Source: Candidatus Kapaibacterium sp.
GTDB taxonomy: Bacteria; Bacteroidota; Ignavibacteria; Kapaibacteriales; UBA4661
Assembly: GCA_025455065.1 (NCBI GenBank)
Contig: JALONG010000025.1
Location: 62,001-126,000 of the forward strand
DNA length: 64,000 nucleotides
Direction of reading: 5' to 3'
The translations under genes were made by a program, and so were the position numbers. The notes under the pieces are model-generated. The model saw nothing but the letters and a program-made list of their open reading frames with translations. It ran no database searches and was not told where the DNA came from. This document shows positions 47,223-54,848 of this stretch, piece after piece; the first letter of the stretch is position 1, and each line of letters starts with the position of its first letter.

Positions 47223-47446
47223 TTGGATGAATGTGATTTTGCTTGTCTGGACTGGGATTTGCAGGATTGTAGGGATTTAGTGGATTTCAAGGGTTTGATT
47301 TTTACGAATGAACGTGGTCAGAGTGATTGACATATTGGATGAATGTGATTTTGCTTGTCTGGACTGGGATTTGCGGGATTGTAGGGACTTAACGGATTTC
47401 AAGGGTTTGATTTTTACGAATGAACGTGGTCAGGGTGATTGACATA
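47223..47446. repeat. Tandem duplication of a 112-bp noncoding unit
   Basis: Copies at 47223-47334 and 47335-47446 differ at about five positions. Each has phased GGATT/GGGATT words ('GGGATTTGC', 'GGATTGTAGGGA', 'GGATTTCAAGGG'). A third copy of the core, inverted and degenerate, is at 47571-47599. There is no open frame through the repeats. Confidence 0.9.
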
Positions 47447-47608
47447 TTTTGAGCAATTATTAGCCTCCTCCTCACTTTGCAAACCCCTTCATCATATGCT
47501 CTATTTTCATCATACGCTCTATCATACAACTATTCAACAATCATCCCATTGAGATAAAAAAATCCCTTTCATCCCTACAATTCTCTAATCCCAGTTCAGA
47601 GAATATAC

Positions 47609-48940
47609 CTACAACATCCCATTCGCTTTTTCCCAATCCAACTTCGCCACGAGCGCGTCGTAAAGCGCTTGGAGGTAGCTTAATTGCGTGTCGCGGAGCG
47701 TGGATTCGGCATCCAATACTTCCTGCTGAGTGGCTTGTCCTTGTTTGAAGCGGGTGGTGGTGCTTGCAATAACTTCTTCAGCGATGGCGATATTTTCTTT
47801 CTGAATCTTTACGGTCTGAACCGCGTTTTGAAGTGCTGTTTGGGTGTTTTGCAGTTCGTACACGGCGGTTTGACGGATGTTGCGCAAATTATTCTCGCTT
47901 TTATCAAGCTGTAAAGCCTGTTGTTGAATGGTTGCCGTGCGCGTGAACCAATCCGCAATCGGAATGGAAGCCCTGACACCGACATAACTGAGCGGGAAAA
48001 AGTTGATTGCGCCAACATCATTCCCAAACCCTTGTGTTCCCAAAAAACCATAACCCGAAAGTGTCGGTAAATTCTGGTTGCGAAGGCGGTCGAGTGAACG
48101 GATATTGACTTCGCGTTGGGCAATTTCTGCTTTTGCATCCGCACGTGCTTCCAATGCTGCATCGAGACTACGATTTGTGAATTCACTATCGCCCGCAAAG
48201 AGTGTAGTTAAATTGTCCGAAAGCCTTATATCTTCAGGCTTTCCTTCCCACGAAAGCTGCAAAGCAAGATTCATCAGGCTCAGACGCACGGCATCTTGCG
48301 CTTTTTTCTTCGCCAAACTCGCATTAGAAAAATTCAGATACGCCCTGCTTTGGTCGGTTTTCAGCGCGTTTGCATTCTTGAATTTTGCTTGCACATCCTT
48401 GTAAAAATTCTCGTTGCGCGTGAAATTTCCTTCCGCTTGACGGAACTTTTCCTGATTGAGCAAAACGGTATAGTATGCCCGTGCAATCGTCATTTTGAGG
48501 TTATTTTTCGCTTGTTCGGTGTTGGCAGCAGCAAGTGTTTGTGCGGCTTTGGCGGACGCTGCTTCCGCGCCAATGCTCATATCCACAATCGTTTGCGTGA
48601 GGTCGAGCGAGGCAGTCGCGTTCCAATTAGTCCCGAAGCGCACTTCCGAAAGTTCATTCTCTCCGGCACTCGGTCTGAATGTGCGAGCAGGCAGAACTTG
48701 CGTGGCAATTTGTGTGTTATAGCGCCCGTCGAGTGTGCCTGTGAGGCGAGGTAGGTAGCGGCTTGCAGCTTCGTTTGTCTTTTCAGCGCTAATTTGCTCT
48801 TCCACAAGGGAATTGCGAAATGCGGGATTGCGTTCAATGCCGTACCGCAGGGCATCTTTGAGTGAAAGTGGCTTTTCTTGGGCGTTTGCGATGCTTAGTG
48901 TACAAAAAACACTAAGAAAAAGAAATGTGGTAGTTTTCAT
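47609..48940 (-). CDS. TolC-family outer-membrane efflux protein
   Basis: The product is 443 residues from ATG 48940 (MKTTTFLFLSVFCTLSIANAQ signal peptide; frame open to 48961). It has the two-repeat helical-barrel pattern of TolC/OEP proteins: 'LSLKDALRYGIERNPAFRNSLVEEQ' at the start of repeat one, long heptad-like helices (about 140-230), a second helical repeat starting near 'LDAALEARADAKAEIAQREVNI', and 'RFKQGQATQQEVLDAESTLRDTQLSYLQALYDALVAKLDWEKANGML' pieces at the end. It forms the outer-membrane duct of a tripartite exporter. It is the last gene of the reverse-strand exporter cluster, 102 bases after the permease gene, with hairpin copy D between. Confidence 0.9.
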   Translation of the reverse strand: MKTTTFLFLSVFCTLSIANAQEKPLSLKDALRYGIERNPAFRNSLVEEQISAEKTNEAASRYLPRLTGTLDGRYNTQIATQVLPARTFRPSAGENELSEVRFGTNWNATASLDLTQTIVDMSIGAEAASAKAAQTLAAANTEQAKNNLKMTIARAYYTVLLNQEKFRQAEGNFTRNENFYKDVQAKFKNANALKTDQSRAYLNFSNASLAKKKAQDAVRLSLMNLALQLSWEGKPEDIRLSDNLTTLFAGDSEFTNRSLDAALEARADAKAEIAQREVNIRSLDRLRNQNLPTLSGYGFLGTQGFGNDVGAINFFPLSYVGVRASIPIADWFTRTATIQQQALQLDKSENNLRNIRQTAVYELQNTQTALQNAVQTVKIQKENIAIAEEVIASTTTRFKQGQATQQEVLDAESTLRDTQLSYLQALYDALVAKLDWEKANGML

Positions 48941-48980
48941 GGTCAAAGGTGATAAGGTCAAGAAAATCTTTTTTGGTAAG

Positions 48981-49042: not shown

Positions 49043-50170
49043 CTAGCCTCTGAAGACGGCAGCCGGTTCGATTTTGGTGATTCGGCGAATAGCGAAAATC
49101 GCTCCAAAAACGGAAATCACGAAGGTTACGACAAAAAAACCAATGCGAATCGTCGGCGTATATTCAAAGAGAACACCGCCTTGACCAATGCCGAATTTGA
49201 AGCCTTGCAATAACACCGTACTAAATATATAGCCGATAAAAGCTAAAATGACGCATTGAAGCAAAATGAGCCTTGTAATAAAGCCATTTGTCGAGCCGAT
49301 AGCCTTGAGAGTGGCGTAATCTCTAATACGGTCAATCGTTGCGGAATAGAGCGTCAGACCGATGATTATCAAACCGGAAATGATTGCAAAGACAATGAGC
49401 GTTCCCGTCGAAATGGCAATACCACTTGTACTGAGGATAAAGGAAACCGTTGAGGCTGATAAATCCTCCGTTTTCCATGCCTTCACTCCAAAAACAGTTG
49501 CATTGATGCGGTCTCGGACAGTTAGTGTATCAGCATTTGGCTCTAAATCAATCAAAAGCGCACTGACTTTATCCGGAGAAACCTGCCCGTAGGCTCTCGC
49601 TCGCTCCAACGTGGTGAACGCATATGCACCTCCGAAGCCTCGCGCACCGCGTGTTTGTGCGGCAATGAAGGCTTTTTTACCGCCGAGTTCAAACTGTGTT
49701 CCGAGTGTTGCGCCGCCGAGCGTTTTTTCATCAAATTCATCGCACGTGAACGCGCCTTCTTGCAATATGTCTTGCATAGAGCCTTTGCTCAAGTTCCACG
49801 CCCCGCCTTTGAACGCAGGATATTGCGAACCGATAATCGTTACTGCGGCGGTTTCGCCACTTTCAAACTTTGCCTGCCCAGCCGCAACCACAAGCGGATA
49901 TGCTTTTGCTACGCCGGGAATAGATTCAACTTGGCGTTGAAGGCGGCTATCCAGCAAACCCAGTGAATTTGCGTCTTGCGTGGCACTGTTGATGACCCAC
50001 AGCCCCACCTTGCCTTGTGTGCTGTTCGGCAGACCAGCCATTAAGCCCGTGAGAAAGAGGTAAATACCGACCTGCTGACCGATGAGAAAAATAGAGATGA
50101 TAATCCCGAAAAGTGCGCCAATGGACTTGGGTTTATCGTAAATGAGAAATCGAAAAGCGTTGTTGAGCAT
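49043..50170 (-). CDS. ABC exporter permease (MacB/DevC, FtsX-like)
   Basis: The product is 375 residues. An N-terminal membrane helix (about 18-42) is followed by a 200-residue periplasmic MacB-PCD-like domain ('QRQVESIPGVAKAYPLV', 'VTIIGSQYP', 'KTLGGATLGTQFELGGKKAFI') and three helices (about 255-280, 305-330, 345-365). The last ends in 'IRRITKIEPAAVFRG', the typical FtsX-family C-terminus. The architecture matches DevC of the cyanobacterial DevBCA exporter. It should work with the ATPase at 51845, the adaptor at 50851 and TolC at 47609. The start lies 31 bases from the inverted repeat bounding the GxxExxY cassette, which separates this gene from the adaptor gene. Confidence 0.88.
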   Translation of the reverse strand: MLNNAFRFLIYDKPKSIGALFGIIISIFLIGQQVGIYLFLTGLMAGLPNSTQGKVGLWVINSATQDANSLGLLDSRLQRQVESIPGVAKAYPLVVAAGQAKFESGETAAVTIIGSQYPAFKGGAWNLSKGSMQDILQEGAFTCDEFDEKTLGGATLGTQFELGGKKAFIAAQTRGARGFGGAYAFTTLERARAYGQVSPDKVSALLIDLEPNADTLTVRDRINATVFGVKAWKTEDLSASTVSFILSTSGIAISTGTLIVFAIISGLIIIGLTLYSATIDRIRDYATLKAIGSTNGFITRLILLQCVILAFIGYIFSTVLLQGFKFGIGQGGVLFEYTPTIRIGFFVVTFVISVFGAIFAIRRITKIEPAAVFRG

Positions 50171-50200: not shown

Positions 50201-50748
50201 TTTTGACGCAGATTTTCATGATTGAACAGATTATCATGTCTTGTCCGCAATTAGTTGTGTATGAATAGATTTCTTAAACTGGTTGTCGAAGACTCTTCGA
50301 TATACCTTGGCTTCATGAGGTCCAAAGTTCATGAGCAATCCAATTTCGATGTCAGTCGCTCGCAAATAATTTACAAGTTGAGTGCTGTGAACCTCAAGCA
50401 GTTGTTTGACAGACTTTAACTCCAAAATAACCAAACCATTGACAACAATGTCCGCAGAAAATGTTCCAATACTTTGCCCATGATAAAACACATTGATAGA
50501 CTTCTGTTGCTCTGGTTTCAAGCCTTTTGCACATAATTCAATCATCATCGCCTCTTCATAACATTTTTCAAGAAAGCCATAGCCAAGGTCGTTGTAAACC
50601 TTGTAAAAGCAGGCAATTATTTCACCTGTAAGATGCGAATGCTTATAGACTTTATCCTGTTTAGGCTTAATTGGCAACAAAGGCTTATCCATAGTATGTC
50701 TTTCTACAATCATGACAATCTGTTGAATCATGACAATCTGTGTCAAAA
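50201..50748. mobile_element. Cassette bounded by 38-bp inverted repeats, carrying the GxxExxY gene
   Basis: Left repeat 50201-50238 and right repeat 50711-50748 (inverted) agree at 34 of 38 positions. Both consist of phased GATT words (TTTTGACAC-AGATTGTCATG-type). The left repeat overlaps the last codons of the GxxExxY gene; the right one lies just upstream of its start. The unit interrupts an exporter operon between adaptor and permease. No transposase and no clear target duplication are seen. That it moved as a unit is inference from the symmetry and location. Confidence 0.6.
50234..50692 (-). CDS. GxxExxY protein (PD-(D/E)XK-like fold)
   Basis: The product is 152 residues from ATG 50692; the frame is open to 50761, but that extension ('LTQIVMIQQIVMI') is a translation of the repeat and is rejected. 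The family motif is visible as 'LGYGFLEKCYEEAM' (G-xx-E-xx-Y), with a preceding 'GEIIACFYKVYND' helix, then 'FSADIVVNGLVILELKSV' containing the D...ExK active-site pattern of PD-(D/E)XK nucleases, and 'HSTQLVNYLRATDIEIGLLMNFG'. The usual members start near the 'GE' helix, so about 20 N-terminal residues are extra. The function of the family is unknown. The gene lies within an inverted-repeat-bounded cassette inside an exporter operon to which it is functionally unrelated. Confidence 0.88.
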   Translation of the reverse strand: MDKPLLPIKPKQDKVYKHSHLTGEIIACFYKVYNDLGYGFLEKCYEEAMMIELCAKGLKPEQQKSINVFYHGQSIGTFSADIVVNGLVILELKSVKQLLEVHSTQLVNYLRATDIEIGLLMNFGPHEAKVYRRVFDNQFKKSIHTQLIADKT

Positions 50749-50800
50749 TTCGGAATACCAACTTAGTACATTATTCTTTATTTAAGTAGTTATTTTTAAT

Positions 50801-50846
50801 CAAGTATTTATGCGGTATAATAAAAACAAAGTGGCTTAAATACTTG
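50801..50846. repeat. Inverted repeat between adaptor and GxxExxY cassette
   Basis: CAAGTATTTA (50801-50810) and TAAATACTTG (50837-50846) are exact inverted repeats with 26 bases between. The region is AT-rich. It may be part of the inserted DNA or a weak terminator; there is no strong T run. Confidence 0.5.
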
Positions 50847-50850
50847 CTTT

Positions 50851-51795
50851 TTAATAATGACTTATATCCAAGCGTACGCGCACTTCACGGACACGGCGGT
50901 CTTCGAGCGCTCCGGCTTCATCGGAAAAGAGAGATTTTTTCTTCAAATACGCACCAACACTCACGACCTGCCCTGTCGTAATAACGTCGGTGCTTCCTTG
51001 ACGACGGATAGTTGCTTTTTGCCCAACGGCAACAGCGTCCACAAATAACTCGTCCACTTCACAAAGCACTGTTATCGCGCCTTTCGGAGCAAAATCACCG
51101 ACCGAGCCGCCAACGGCAACAGCACTGCCGACATTCGGCGTGAGTTTGAGCAACGTACCATTTGTCGGGGCTTTCAAGACTTTACGCCCAATTTCTGCAC
51201 GAGTTACCCGCGCATCTGCTTGCAGTTCATTCAATCGGCTTTCTGCTGATTGTCGTGAGGCTTGAAGGCGCTCCACTTCTCGCTGCGCGGTTTCGGAATC
51301 GGTTTTTGCATTATCTACATTTTGACGAGTTTCCGCGCCACTGTCAAAGATATTTTTCAGTCGGTCATAGCGGTCTTTGAAGTTCTGCGCTTTGATTTCC
51401 GCAGAGCGTACTTGCGCCAAAATCCCTTTTACCTCTTCGCCTTGCGTCCGCACACGTGCCTCAGCGAGCTGCAACCGTGCGCTTTCTACACTATGGTCGA
51501 GTTCCAAAATTGTTGTTCCTGCGCTAAGTTCTTGACCGTCATTGGCAGAAATTTTACTCACAACGCCCGGAACTTCCATGCTGAGTGATGTAATCTGGTC
51601 TTCCGGTTCAACGCGCCCCAAAGCGGTAATGCGGTTAATGTCGCTTGATTTGACGCGCTGGTCTTCGATTTTCACGGGAGCCGGTCCGTCGGCAGCTTTC
51701 GCGTCTTTATTACCGCAACTTGAGAGCGTAAAGACATTCAGCACGATGCAAGCAGAAATGCCGAGCGGAAGGAATATTTTTGTGGTGGTGTTCAT
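50851..51795 (-). CDS. Lipoprotein periplasmic adaptor of ABC exporter (DevB/HlyD type), apparently C-terminally clipped
   Basis: The product is 314 residues. The lipobox is LSSC, so it is anchored by lipid rather than by a transmembrane helix. Domains in order: a half-lipoyl motif ('ALGRVEPEDQITSLSMEVPGVVSKI', 'DGQELSAGTTILELD'), a long coiled coil (about 100-200, 'RLQASRQSAESRLNELQADARVTR'), the second half-lipoyl ('LKAPTNGTLLKLTPNVGSAV'), and a beta-barrel ('ITVLCEVDELFVDAVAVGQKATI'). Relatives normally continue after 'VREVRVRLD' with about 15-20 more residues; here it stops at 'RLDISHY', close to the GxxExxY cassette. It links the inner-membrane permease/ATPase to TolC. The ATPase gene lies 49 bases upstream. 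Confidence 0.87.
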   Translation of the reverse strand: MNTTTKIFLPLGISACIVLNVFTLSSCGNKDAKAADGPAPVKIEDQRVKSSDINRITALGRVEPEDQITSLSMEVPGVVSKISANDGQELSAGTTILELDHSVESARLQLAEARVRTQGEEVKGILAQVRSAEIKAQNFKDRYDRLKNIFDSGAETRQNVDNAKTDSETAQREVERLQASRQSAESRLNELQADARVTRAEIGRKVLKAPTNGTLLKLTPNVGSAVAVGGSVGDFAPKGAITVLCEVDELFVDAVAVGQKATIRRQGSTDVITTGQVVSVGAYLKKKSLFSDEAGALEDRRVREVRVRLDISHY

Positions 51796-51844: not shown

Positions 51845-52561
51845 TCAATGGTGCGCTAAAACCTCGCCGGCACTAACTTCGCGGGCAATGCCATTTTCAA
51901 CTTCAATAACGCGGTGTGCATAAGGGCGAAGGCGCATATCGTGCGTAACAACCGCCAAAGCCCTACCGGAATCAGCTATTTCGCGGAGTTCTTCCATAAC
52001 GATTCCGACCGATTTCACATCCAGCGCAGCCGTTGGTTCATCACAGAGCATCAGTTTCGGCTCGGTTACAAGCGCTCTGGCAATGGCTATACGCTGCTGT
52101 TCTCCGCCGGAAAGCATCTTGGGGAGTGACTTCACACGGTGCGACATACCGACGCGCTTTATCACTTCATGCGCCCGTTCACGCGCTTCTTTTTCGCCAA
52201 TGCCTTGCAAGCGCAAAGGCAACATGACGTTTTGTTCAGCACTGAGCGGCGCAACGAGATTGAAACTTTGAAAGACAAAGCCGATATTATTCAGCCGAAG
52301 CGCTGCCATTTGCTTCGGATTCAGGTTATTGGTGTCCGTACCGTTGATATTCACAAGTCCGGTGGAAGGATAAATCACGCACCCAAGCAAGGAAAGAAGC
52401 GTGGTTTTGCCGGAGCCGGAAGGTCCGATGATGAGCAAAAGTTCGCCACGATTAACGTGCATCGTGGTTGGCTGAAGAGCCGTAATCTCCGTGTCTCCGG
52501 TTTTATAGACTTTCGATGCCTCGGAAACATGAGCAACGACGGGGTTTTGAGTGGTGGTCAT
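51845..52561 (-). CDS. ABC exporter ATPase (MacB/LolD/DevA family)
   Basis: The product is 238 residues from ATG 52561; the open frame continues upstream through an octamer tandem repeat and is rejected as coding. All motifs are present: Walker A 'GPSGSGKTT', Q-loop 'FVFQSFNLV', signature 'LSGGEQQRIAIARAL', Walker B 'LMLCDEP', D-loop 'TAALD', and H-loop 'VTHD'. Its length and 'DTNNLNPKQMAALRLNNIGFVFQ' phrase are typical of the family that powers MacB/DevC permeases. With the adaptor, permease and TolC it forms a complete tripartite exporter; the cargo is unknown (glycolipids, peptides or drugs in relatives). Confidence 0.93.
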   Translation of the reverse strand: MTTTQNPVVAHVSEASKVYKTGDTEITALQPTTMHVNRGELLLIIGPSGSGKTTLLSLLGCVIYPSTGLVNINGTDTNNLNPKQMAALRLNNIGFVFQSFNLVAPLSAEQNVMLPLRLQGIGEKEARERAHEVIKRVGMSHRVKSLPKMLSGGEQQRIAIARALVTEPKLMLCDEPTAALDVKSVGIVMEELREIADSGRALAVVTHDMRLRPYAHRVIEVENGIAREVSAGEVLAHH

Positions 52562-52562
52562 G

Positions 52563-52658
52563 GTAAGTTGGTTACTTAGTGGCTTGGTTACTTGGTTACT
52601 TAGTTGCTTGGTTACTTGGTTGCTGAGTAGCTTGTTTACTTGGTTGCTTGGTGATTTG
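52563..52658. repeat. Octameric tandem repeat (12 units of GTTACTTG-type) directly before the ATPase ATG
   Basis: Twelve consecutive 8-bp units, consensus GTTRCTTG on the plus strand (CAAGYAAC in gene sense), end one base before the start codon triplet. Units vary at one to three positions. Eight is not a multiple of three. No Shine-Dalgarno sequence intervenes, so the repeat itself forms the translation-initiation leader. Confidence 0.9.
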
Positions 52659-52666
52659 TAGTGGTT

Positions 52667-52699
52667 TCGGGCTGTCCGATTCTTATCGGGCTGTCCGAT
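52667..52699. repeat. Direct repeat TCGGGCTGTCCGAT, two copies 19 bp apart
   Basis: Identical 14-mers at 52667-52680 and 52686-52699 lie between the MFS and ATPase genes; the 12-mer core recurs inverted at 30581-30592. This is probably part of a dispersed repeat family. Confidence 0.6.
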
Positions 52700-52706
52700 A
52701 TTCGGT

Positions 52707-53945
52707 TTATGTGGCGTTGTGCGTGGTGAATCCCTGCGGCACTTGTATCTGTTTGATTTGGCGAACAACGTAGAGTGAGATAAGCGTTACAAAAGCAGCA
52801 ACAGCGCCAACCCAGTTGTAATGCTGCAAAAGTCCGTCTGCGCCTTTGACAACGACAAATCCCGACAGGAACGTACCCATTGCACCGCTAAGTTGCTGCA
52901 CCGAACTGGAGATACTCGTAAAACTTCCGCGCTGCTGCGGCAGCACCGTTCCTTGCACGAGTGCCATTCCGGGAATCATACGCCCATTGATGCAGATAAA
53001 TAGAAATGTTGTGGTTGCAAAGACCAATACAAGCGGTGTTGCGGGTGGAAAGTTCGTCAGCGCAAGAATCGGAATGAGCGAAAGAATTGCCGCAACAATG
53101 TAAATTTTCCCTTTGTCAATTTTATCCGCCAAAATGCCGATAAGCGGTGATGCGACGACGGTTGCCGAGCCGCCAATCAAGTACATAAGTGGCACTTGAG
53201 CCTCCGAAACGCCCACATTACTGACCAAAAATGCCGTCAAAAGTGGTAAAATCGAAAATTGTCCGAGTGCAAGCGTGATAACGAGCGCAATAGCAAACAT
53301 CTGGTTTTTGTCAGCAAGAATGCTTTGAATAACCTCCATTGGTGCGCGTTTCGGCGCGTTCAAATGTCCCGTTAAACTTGGAACAAAGAGCATAATAAAG
53401 CCTTGAACAATTACACCCAAGCCCACCAACACAAGGAACGGTGCGTGCCAATCCCACAGATTCGCAAAATATAATCCGCCCGGAACGCCCAAAATGGATG
53501 CCAACGAGAAGGATGCCGTTACCAAACCAAATGAGCGGGCGCGACGTTCTAAGGGAATCGCATCACCGATGATAGAAAATACCATCGTTCCTAAAAGCCC
53601 GCCAAACATTCCTGCAATAATGCGCCCCAAAAGTAACACTTGATAATTCGGTGCAAGCCCGCACACCAGCGTTGCAATGGTTACTCCCGCAAAAAGGAGC
53701 GTGAGAAGTTTTTTTCGGTCGAATTTGTCAATGAAAAATGCCCCAAGAAAGCCACAAATGCCTGCGGTGAAGATGTATGCGCCAACGGCAATGCCAAATT
53801 CCCGTGTGGAGATACTCCAAAGTTTGATGAGTTTTGGTGCAAGCGGCGGCATTATCATAAAATCCACAACCGCTACAAACTGCACCAATGCTAAGGTTGC
53901 AAGCAACAATATTTCTTTTTTTCCCGAAACCAACGCGGAATTCAT
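52707..53945 (-). CDS. MFS transporter
   Basis: The product is 412 residues with twelve predicted membrane segments in two groups of six. The MFS signature is in the loop between TM2 and TM3: 'FFIDKFDRKKLL', with a related loop 'ILADKIDKGKIY' between TM8 and TM9. Other typical features are 'GRIIAGMFGGLLGTMVFSIIGDAIP' (TM4 region) and 'ERRARSFGLVTASFSLASILGVPGG', the motif C-like TM5 region found in proton-driven antiporters. It is most like AraJ/DHA1-type drug or sugar efflux proteins; substrate unknown. It lies upstream of the ABC exporter on the same strand, 145 bases before the ATPase start, and could be part of the same export locus. Confidence 0.87.
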   Translation of the reverse strand: MNSALVSGKKEILLLATLALVQFVAVVDFMIMPPLAPKLIKLWSISTREFGIAVGAYIFTAGICGFLGAFFIDKFDRKKLLTLLFAGVTIATLVCGLAPNYQVLLLGRIIAGMFGGLLGTMVFSIIGDAIPLERRARSFGLVTASFSLASILGVPGGLYFANLWDWHAPFLVLVGLGVIVQGFIMLFVPSLTGHLNAPKRAPMEVIQSILADKNQMFAIALVITLALGQFSILPLLTAFLVSNVGVSEAQVPLMYLIGGSATVVASPLIGILADKIDKGKIYIVAAILSLIPILALTNFPPATPLVLVFATTTFLFICINGRMIPGMALVQGTVLPQQRGSFTSISSSVQQLSGAMGTFLSGFVVVKGADGLLQHYNWVGAVAAFVTLISLYVVRQIKQIQVPQGFTTHNAT

Positions 53946-54604: not shown

Positions 54605-54765
54605 TGAGGTACATCAAAAAGTATGCTTAGGAATACAACCGAAATAAGTCAATCATCTTGGCGTAGAACAGATATTCTTTCCTGTGCCATGAACACCGTT
54701 AGACGTAATTACCGAAAGCAGCGTAAAGACTAGCTTTGAAGATTATTCGCTGCGCTCATTTTGGA

Positions 54766-54785
54766 CACAGACAAGAATGTCTGTG
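54766..54785. repeat. Short inverted repeat
   Basis: CACAGACA-agaa-TGTCTGTG, a perfect 8-bp hairpin between the SOUL and redoxin-fold genes, about 64 bases past the SOUL stop on the minus strand. There is no T run, so a dispersed repeat is likelier than a terminator. Confidence 0.5.
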
Positions 54786-54848
54786 CTACGATGAAGATAG
54801 TTCACTTATTTCACTAACGTTCATTAAGTTCGTGTAGTATAAACACTA

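Follow-up and report, generated by a model that had tools for sequence, protein, structure and literature searches.

Among described systems, those to which the cassettes considered here may be compared most closely are RAYT/REPIN systems, or REPtrons (PMC3116915), along with TIRtrons (PMC3733652). With RAYT/REPIN, a single-copy protein gene adjoins small repeats that are dispersed in inverted pairs, and a genome can contain several families of repeat words, every one of them with a gene of its own; repeats and proteins appear to co-evolve. GxxExxY genes are alike in these regards. The RAYT protein, however, is an HUH tyrosine transposase rather than, as predicted here, a PD-(D/E)XK nuclease, and its repeats are single REP palindromes rather than long, phased arrays of words all having the same sense. 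A second comparison is with the 23S rRNA IVS bearing an S23/IVP four-helix-bundle ORF, which is thought to be selfish (PMC4990558). These IVSs too are a few hundred bases long and contain one small ORF, and in the Bacteroidota IVP genes are found as well within inverted phased arrays. The step of IVP arrays is 7 bp, however, versus 9-10 bp with GxxExxY, and GxxExxY cassettes are located between protein genes; the ORF is of PF05635, whereas that of the window cassette is of PF13366. GxxExxY cassettes, that is, work most like RAYT/REPIN systems and TIRtrons, and resemble 23S IVSs, while being members of neither. TIGR04256/PF13366, i.e., the family to which GxxExxY proteins belong, is a common protein family without an assigned function.

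The term ‘window’ is used here to describe the whole 64,000-nucleotide stretch of Candidatus Kapaibacterium sp. DNA that was analysed. Within it a GxxExxY gene lies between the adaptor and permease genes of an exporter cluster, enclosed by 38-bp inverted repeats (Table 1), all as the first-pass annotation had described. These arms were recovered by de novo inverted-repeat search, and their alignment score is 56, against a maximum of 31 among 600 dinucleotide shuffles of such flanks. The encoded protein matches TIGR04256 with 133.9 bits (cut-off 35) and PF13366 with 134.9 bits (cut-off 22). The tabulated coding sequence is the likely one, with its stop codon falling within the left array, while a longer, TTG-started ORF reaches 50761 only by reading through the right arm. 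An earlier suspicion that the N-terminus as annotated might read through the repeat was in this way borne out.

Table 1. Features of the window in the vicinity of the GxxExxY cassette (positions are those of the window)
Feature	Position	Strand	Remarks
Gene-less arrays of a second word	47243-47603	.	GTCTGGACTGGGATTTGCAGGATT; TGGACTGGGATTTGCAGGATT; tandem
TolC-like outer-membrane protein	47609-48961	-	
FtsX-type ABC exporter permease, downstream neighbour	49043-50170	-	anchor of the empty-site comparison
Left phased array	50201-50238	+	GCAGATTTT, CATGATTGA, ACAGATTAT and CATG in succession, preceded by TTTTGAC; identical to the inverted right arm at 34 of 38 positions
GxxExxY gene, 152 aa, predicted PD-(D/E)XK nuclease family	50234-50692	-	TIGR04256, PF13366; invariant residues; structural model
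Right phased array, inverted copy	50711-50748	-	two perfect 16-mers AATCATGACAATCTGT, 18 bp apart
Periplasmic adaptor (HlyD/DevB-like), upstream neighbour	50851-51795	-	
ABC exporter ATPase (DevA/LolD/MacB-like)	51845-52768	-	

The arrangement is not peculiar to this gene. All three GxxExxY genes of the source genome are enclosed by inverted phased arrays, with the other two having as words TTTTTTGACACGGATTGAAGAGGATTTCACAGATTACACGGATT (49 nt, 96% complementary) and TCTGGACTGGGATTTGAGGATTTTCGGGATT. How often GxxExxY genes have inverted flanks, a question which the first-pass annotation had raised, can be answered from two samples, both assessed at an inverted-repeat score of 28 or more. Within a Bacteroidota sample, 69 of 98 GxxExxY genes possess inverted repeats between their flanks, versus 4 of 125 neighbouring control ORFs from the same contigs, and within a second, named sample, one that reaches other phyla, so do 57 of 79 loci. 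Clear arrays in the latter come from Planctomycetota (L258), Acidobacteriota (L264), Verrucomicrobiota (L301), Nostoc (L304), and a Dojkabacteria MAG (L292), phylum assignments which are subject to possible MAG binning errors. With approximately 30% of GxxExxY genes, no inverted repeat is detectable.

As a unit the cassette consists of an array, the gene, and an inverted array, together spanning about 430-650 bp, with GxxExxY gene copy number being low, i.e., 1 to 12 per genome. Two or more phased steps of a single word, reading inward in the same sense, are present in both arms at 40 of 96 GxxExxY loci versus 1 of 159 controls, and arms of opposite sense with at least two phased steps are seen at 3 of the 96. 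Words are spaced by 8-12 bp with a peak at 9-10 bp, which is near one helical turn; given that range, a strict 9-bp period was rejected. The words themselves vary across loci and include CACAGAG, CGCAAAG, CGCAATG, CACGAAT, AACGGAGT, and GATT. GATT, the phased repeat that had been proposed as what the protein recognises, is just one word among several.

Across 40 sequences the residues E42, D81, E91xK93, and Q105xxxY109 are invariant. An AlphaFold2 model of the window protein (pLDDT 88) has as its closest structure Cas4 SSO0001 (Foldseek E 3e-5; VIA-align Z 9.3, with values under 8 not being distinctive), with matches further down to lambda-type exonucleases, to MGME1, and to the nuclease domains of AddAB/RecB; by sequence search, no homologue of solved structure was found. 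The protein is predicted to be a PD-(D/E)XK nuclease of the RecB/Cas4 branch, possessing a restriction-endonuclease-like fold along with all of the catalytic residues; a PD-(D/E)XK-like fold had previously been ascribed to the family. Fold and E...D...ExK...QxxxY residues are held in common with Cas4, RecB, and lambda exonuclease, but GxxExxY proteins differ from these in standing alone, at approximately 120-150 aa, with neither helicase nor Cas partners nor conserved Fe-S cysteines. Cas4 has four of the latter, whereas among invariant or nearly invariant columns of the 40 GxxExxY sequences there are none. In ten pairs dN/dS is 0.02-0.09, with dS partly saturated, and the protein therefore is under purifying selection. 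A known defence system was ruled out, as PADLOC models of anti-phage defence provided no match for the window system, and a phage family was set aside as well, matches to PHROGs being only weak.

Words and proteins co-vary. Among the 68 loci whose arms are clear, similarity between arrays tracks protein identity across different families (Spearman rho 0.39, reached by none of 2000 permutations in a Mantel comparison). An association between repeat and gene family elsewhere, for which the first-pass annotation had suggested looking, is present not only in the flank counts given above but also at the level of genomes. Thus, of 296 sampled genomes, CACAGAG arrays are found in 68 with GxxExxY genes versus 4 without (p 2.5e-19, or 1.5e-13 once the largest array-poor family is dropped), a count which includes the arrays that flank GxxExxY genes themselves. 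In several genomes array matches far outnumber GxxExxY genes, e.g., 17 matches to one gene in G231, and in some (G205, G011) arrays occur without a GxxExxY gene. That the nuclease may recognise the array would fit the observations.

Cassettes also can be found at unrelated sites. Homologous but non-syntenic cassettes align over array-gene-array only, with L092 and L108 doing so over 1439-1900, L094 and L097 over 1439-1898, and L145 and L140 over 1442-1915, and beyond TTACACAGAG...CTCTGTGTAA the sequences are unrelated. In two loci of the same genus (L107 and L112) the cassette is opposite in orientation between identical neighbours, a difference which is an inversion between inverted arrays. 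Empty sites, which had been proposed as something to search for in relatives, were found at two loci. At the exporter locus of the window, neither gene nor array is present in the congener G007, where the gap is tight, and the cassette is absent as well from the more distant G033. At a clpB-like locus, the congener G006 shares its left neighbour with the source genome (G000) but not its cassette. By eye, no target-site duplication was seen at the window cassette, the one cassette so inspected.

The history of the window site within the genus is less simple. In G001, G005, and G006 alike the same gap holds a GxxExxY gene, within arrays whose word differs from genome to genome, i.e., GGATTATCGGGATTTATC, GATTTGACTGATGGAACT, and GATGAAGATGATTGGATT, respectively. 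A recent insertion unique to the source genome was rejected on this basis, and the unit therefore is partly conserved in place. In a permease tree the empty G007 groups with G005 and G006 (95/94), with G000 and G001 outside. In a protein tree seven genus-specific GxxExxY copies form a single clade (100/99), while the window-site copies do not form a clade of their own, and repeated insertion into the same gap therefore is possible. Either the gap received one old insertion, which was lost in G007 and whose arrays were rewritten per line, or else the gap has been hit repeatedly. Given low gene copy number, along with retention of some copies at one site over long divergence, transposition would be rare or past. 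Discrete boundaries, empty sites, non-syntenic array-gene-array homologues, and co-variation of word with protein support viewing gene plus repeats as a discrete unit, one that by these sequence criteria would behave as a miniature mobile element, much as had initially been proposed.

There is, in my estimation, about an even chance that there is a class of miniature mobile cassettes of which GxxExxY genes constitute the protein-coding members, with the nuclease binding its own word and mobilising the cassette. A fuller version of this reading can be put forward only tentatively. In it, an element-specific nuclease would read a word that recurs roughly with each helical turn, and would drive excision, inversion, and reinsertion both of its cassette and of gene-less pairs, with word evolving along with protein and with arrays rewritten in concert genome-wide. 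As to mechanism in the even-chance reading, the nuclease might bind its word in tandem along the array, on one face of the helix, and cut or resolve the ends of the cassette, perhaps while the DNA is extruded as a hairpin. The cassette could thereby excise, invert, and reinsert, while array pairs that have the same word but no gene could be maintained in trans.

Such pairs are plentiful. The search of the genome for the repeat that had been suggested at the outset yields approximately 115 occurrences of the window's word, mostly as inverted pairs some 60-130 bp apart, and for the three of these dispersed pairs that were tested, folding as single-stranded DNA is better than for any of 200 shuffles. 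Repeats dispersed in inverted pairs, as are characteristic of RAYT/REPIN, thus are found here, with most copies of the word residing, however, in a MITE. That is, most solo copies lie within GTAACTGTTTAGGTC...CTAAACAGTTAC, which in the source genome is usually 164 bp long and which possesses GTAACTGTTTAG ends (GTAAC; L203-L229 in the source genome, L200-L214 in G006 and others). Of 27 MITE copies, 18 display 8-bp target duplications matching at 6 of 8 positions or better, versus 2.8% under the null. As the MITE has its own ends along with its own 8-bp duplications, its amplification, which is due to another system, therefore is not evidence for GxxExxY activity, and the idea that all of the approximately 40 solo copies prove mobilisation by GxxExxY was rejected. 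Gene-less pairs outside of the MITE exist for all three GxxExxY array words of the source genome. A 350-kb sample of G007, a genome without GxxExxY, yielded no inverted pairs, versus 38 of all kinds in 850 kb of G000, approximately 21 of them of array type by eye, a contrast which is rough as the G000 stretches were partly picked from contigs known to hold copies. An apparent IS end in G001 (L202, L206) has the same terminal bases as the MITE; a 48-aa fragment found there has no Pfam match.

From a different perspective, the gene might be only a passenger, i.e., cargo of a non-coding hairpin element that is moved by an IS transposase or by host replication or repair, with the protein serving instead, e.g., in selfish maintenance or defence. 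I consider this to be unlikely while still the most credible of the alternatives. Residence of so many copies of the window's word in a GTAAC-ended MITE with 8-bp target duplications is in its favour. GxxExxY cassettes have in common with MITEs, and with IS elements having 8-bp duplications, both inverted repeats at the termini and dispersed copies that lack a gene, with this one MITE carrying the same arrays. GxxExxY cassettes differ, however, in lacking a DDE transposase and in being phased internally, and the window cassette possesses no GTAAC ends, nor has any target duplication been noticed at its site. Also favouring cargo status are genes of a different protein family, PF05635 (IVP/S23), which at loci L162-L189 lie within inverted arrays having a 7-bp step (lag 7, z 7.5) and words such as TTAGCTA, CTGGCTA, and CGTGACG; array packaging therefore is not unique to the nuclease. 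Against it, the step differs by family, being 9-10 bp for GxxExxY, 7 bp for IVP, and absent with RAYT, and the word follows the protein. A gene-less pair with the 7-bp step is present as well in the source genome (L412, 8007-8316).

A third possibility, one that seems improbable too, is that the nuclease has been domesticated and is stationary, acting in the manner of a REPtron from fixed sites upon the dispersed word, e.g., in replication, repair, or RNA processing, and with arrays changing in concert per genome. The three congeners that retain a GxxExxY gene at the window site, with different words, would be expected from this, as too would strong purifying selection at fixed sites. Consistent as well is that G000 and G006 share a MITE skeleton whose arrays differ, with each of the two genomes having its own word there, in each case agreeing with the GxxExxY flanks of the respective genome. 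Cassettes do, however, occur at unrelated sites with their ends conserved, and window-site copies that fail to form one protein clade leave room for repeated insertion into the gap. Mobilisation of the arrays by RAYTs (REP-associated tyrosine transposases), with GxxExxY a mere bystander, is highly unlikely, since even though RAYT genes are common in genomes that have GxxExxY, and 22 of 29 RAYT genes from the same phylum have flanking inverted repeats, those repeats are ordinary REP/TIR hairpins, with phased arrays found at none of the 29.

If the preferred reading is correct, that is, if the nuclease drives its own cassette, then this would be a transposition-like system based on a Cas4/RecB-type enzyme, and, in the fuller and more tentative version, a means of mobility having no relation to the DDE, HUH, serine, or tyrosine classes of transposase. 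Phased inverted arrays across several phyla supply TIGR04256/PF13366 with a strong genomic context, and array packaging explains the garbled N-termini with which these proteins are annotated. Each GxxExxY protein moreover now has a defined DNA word, thereby converting ‘function unknown’ into a direct question of binding and cleavage. A literature search using array sequences and family names found no description of the association between GxxExxY genes and arrays; its coverage was incomplete and novelty therefore is provisional.

As to the surroundings of the window cassette, the exporter genes match DevB, DevC, DevA, and type-I TolC models only below curated cut-offs. The description of this cluster as DevBCA-TolC-like therefore is a loose label. 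The adaptor ends ISHY, without the last approximately 17 residues (..LLLNSRVECVI..) that are found in four congeners, and an AT-rich imperfect hairpin (50780-50867) follows its gene. The gene-less tandem arrays of Table 1 have an aminopeptidase-like gene on one side and the TolC-like gene on the other, and their word also flanks another GxxExxY gene of the same genome (L003). The source genome possesses in addition a second repeat-plus-gene system, i.e., a RAYT gene (L370) with REP-type repeats of its own, GGAGTGCGGAAT...ATTCCGCACTCC, on its flanks. Hairpins that contain GTGGCACAGACATTCTTGTCTGTG, or variants close to it, lastly, are dispersed both within the window (54641-54812) and at L398, L422, L441, and L442, in the source genome and G006, and represent an unrelated family of repeats.
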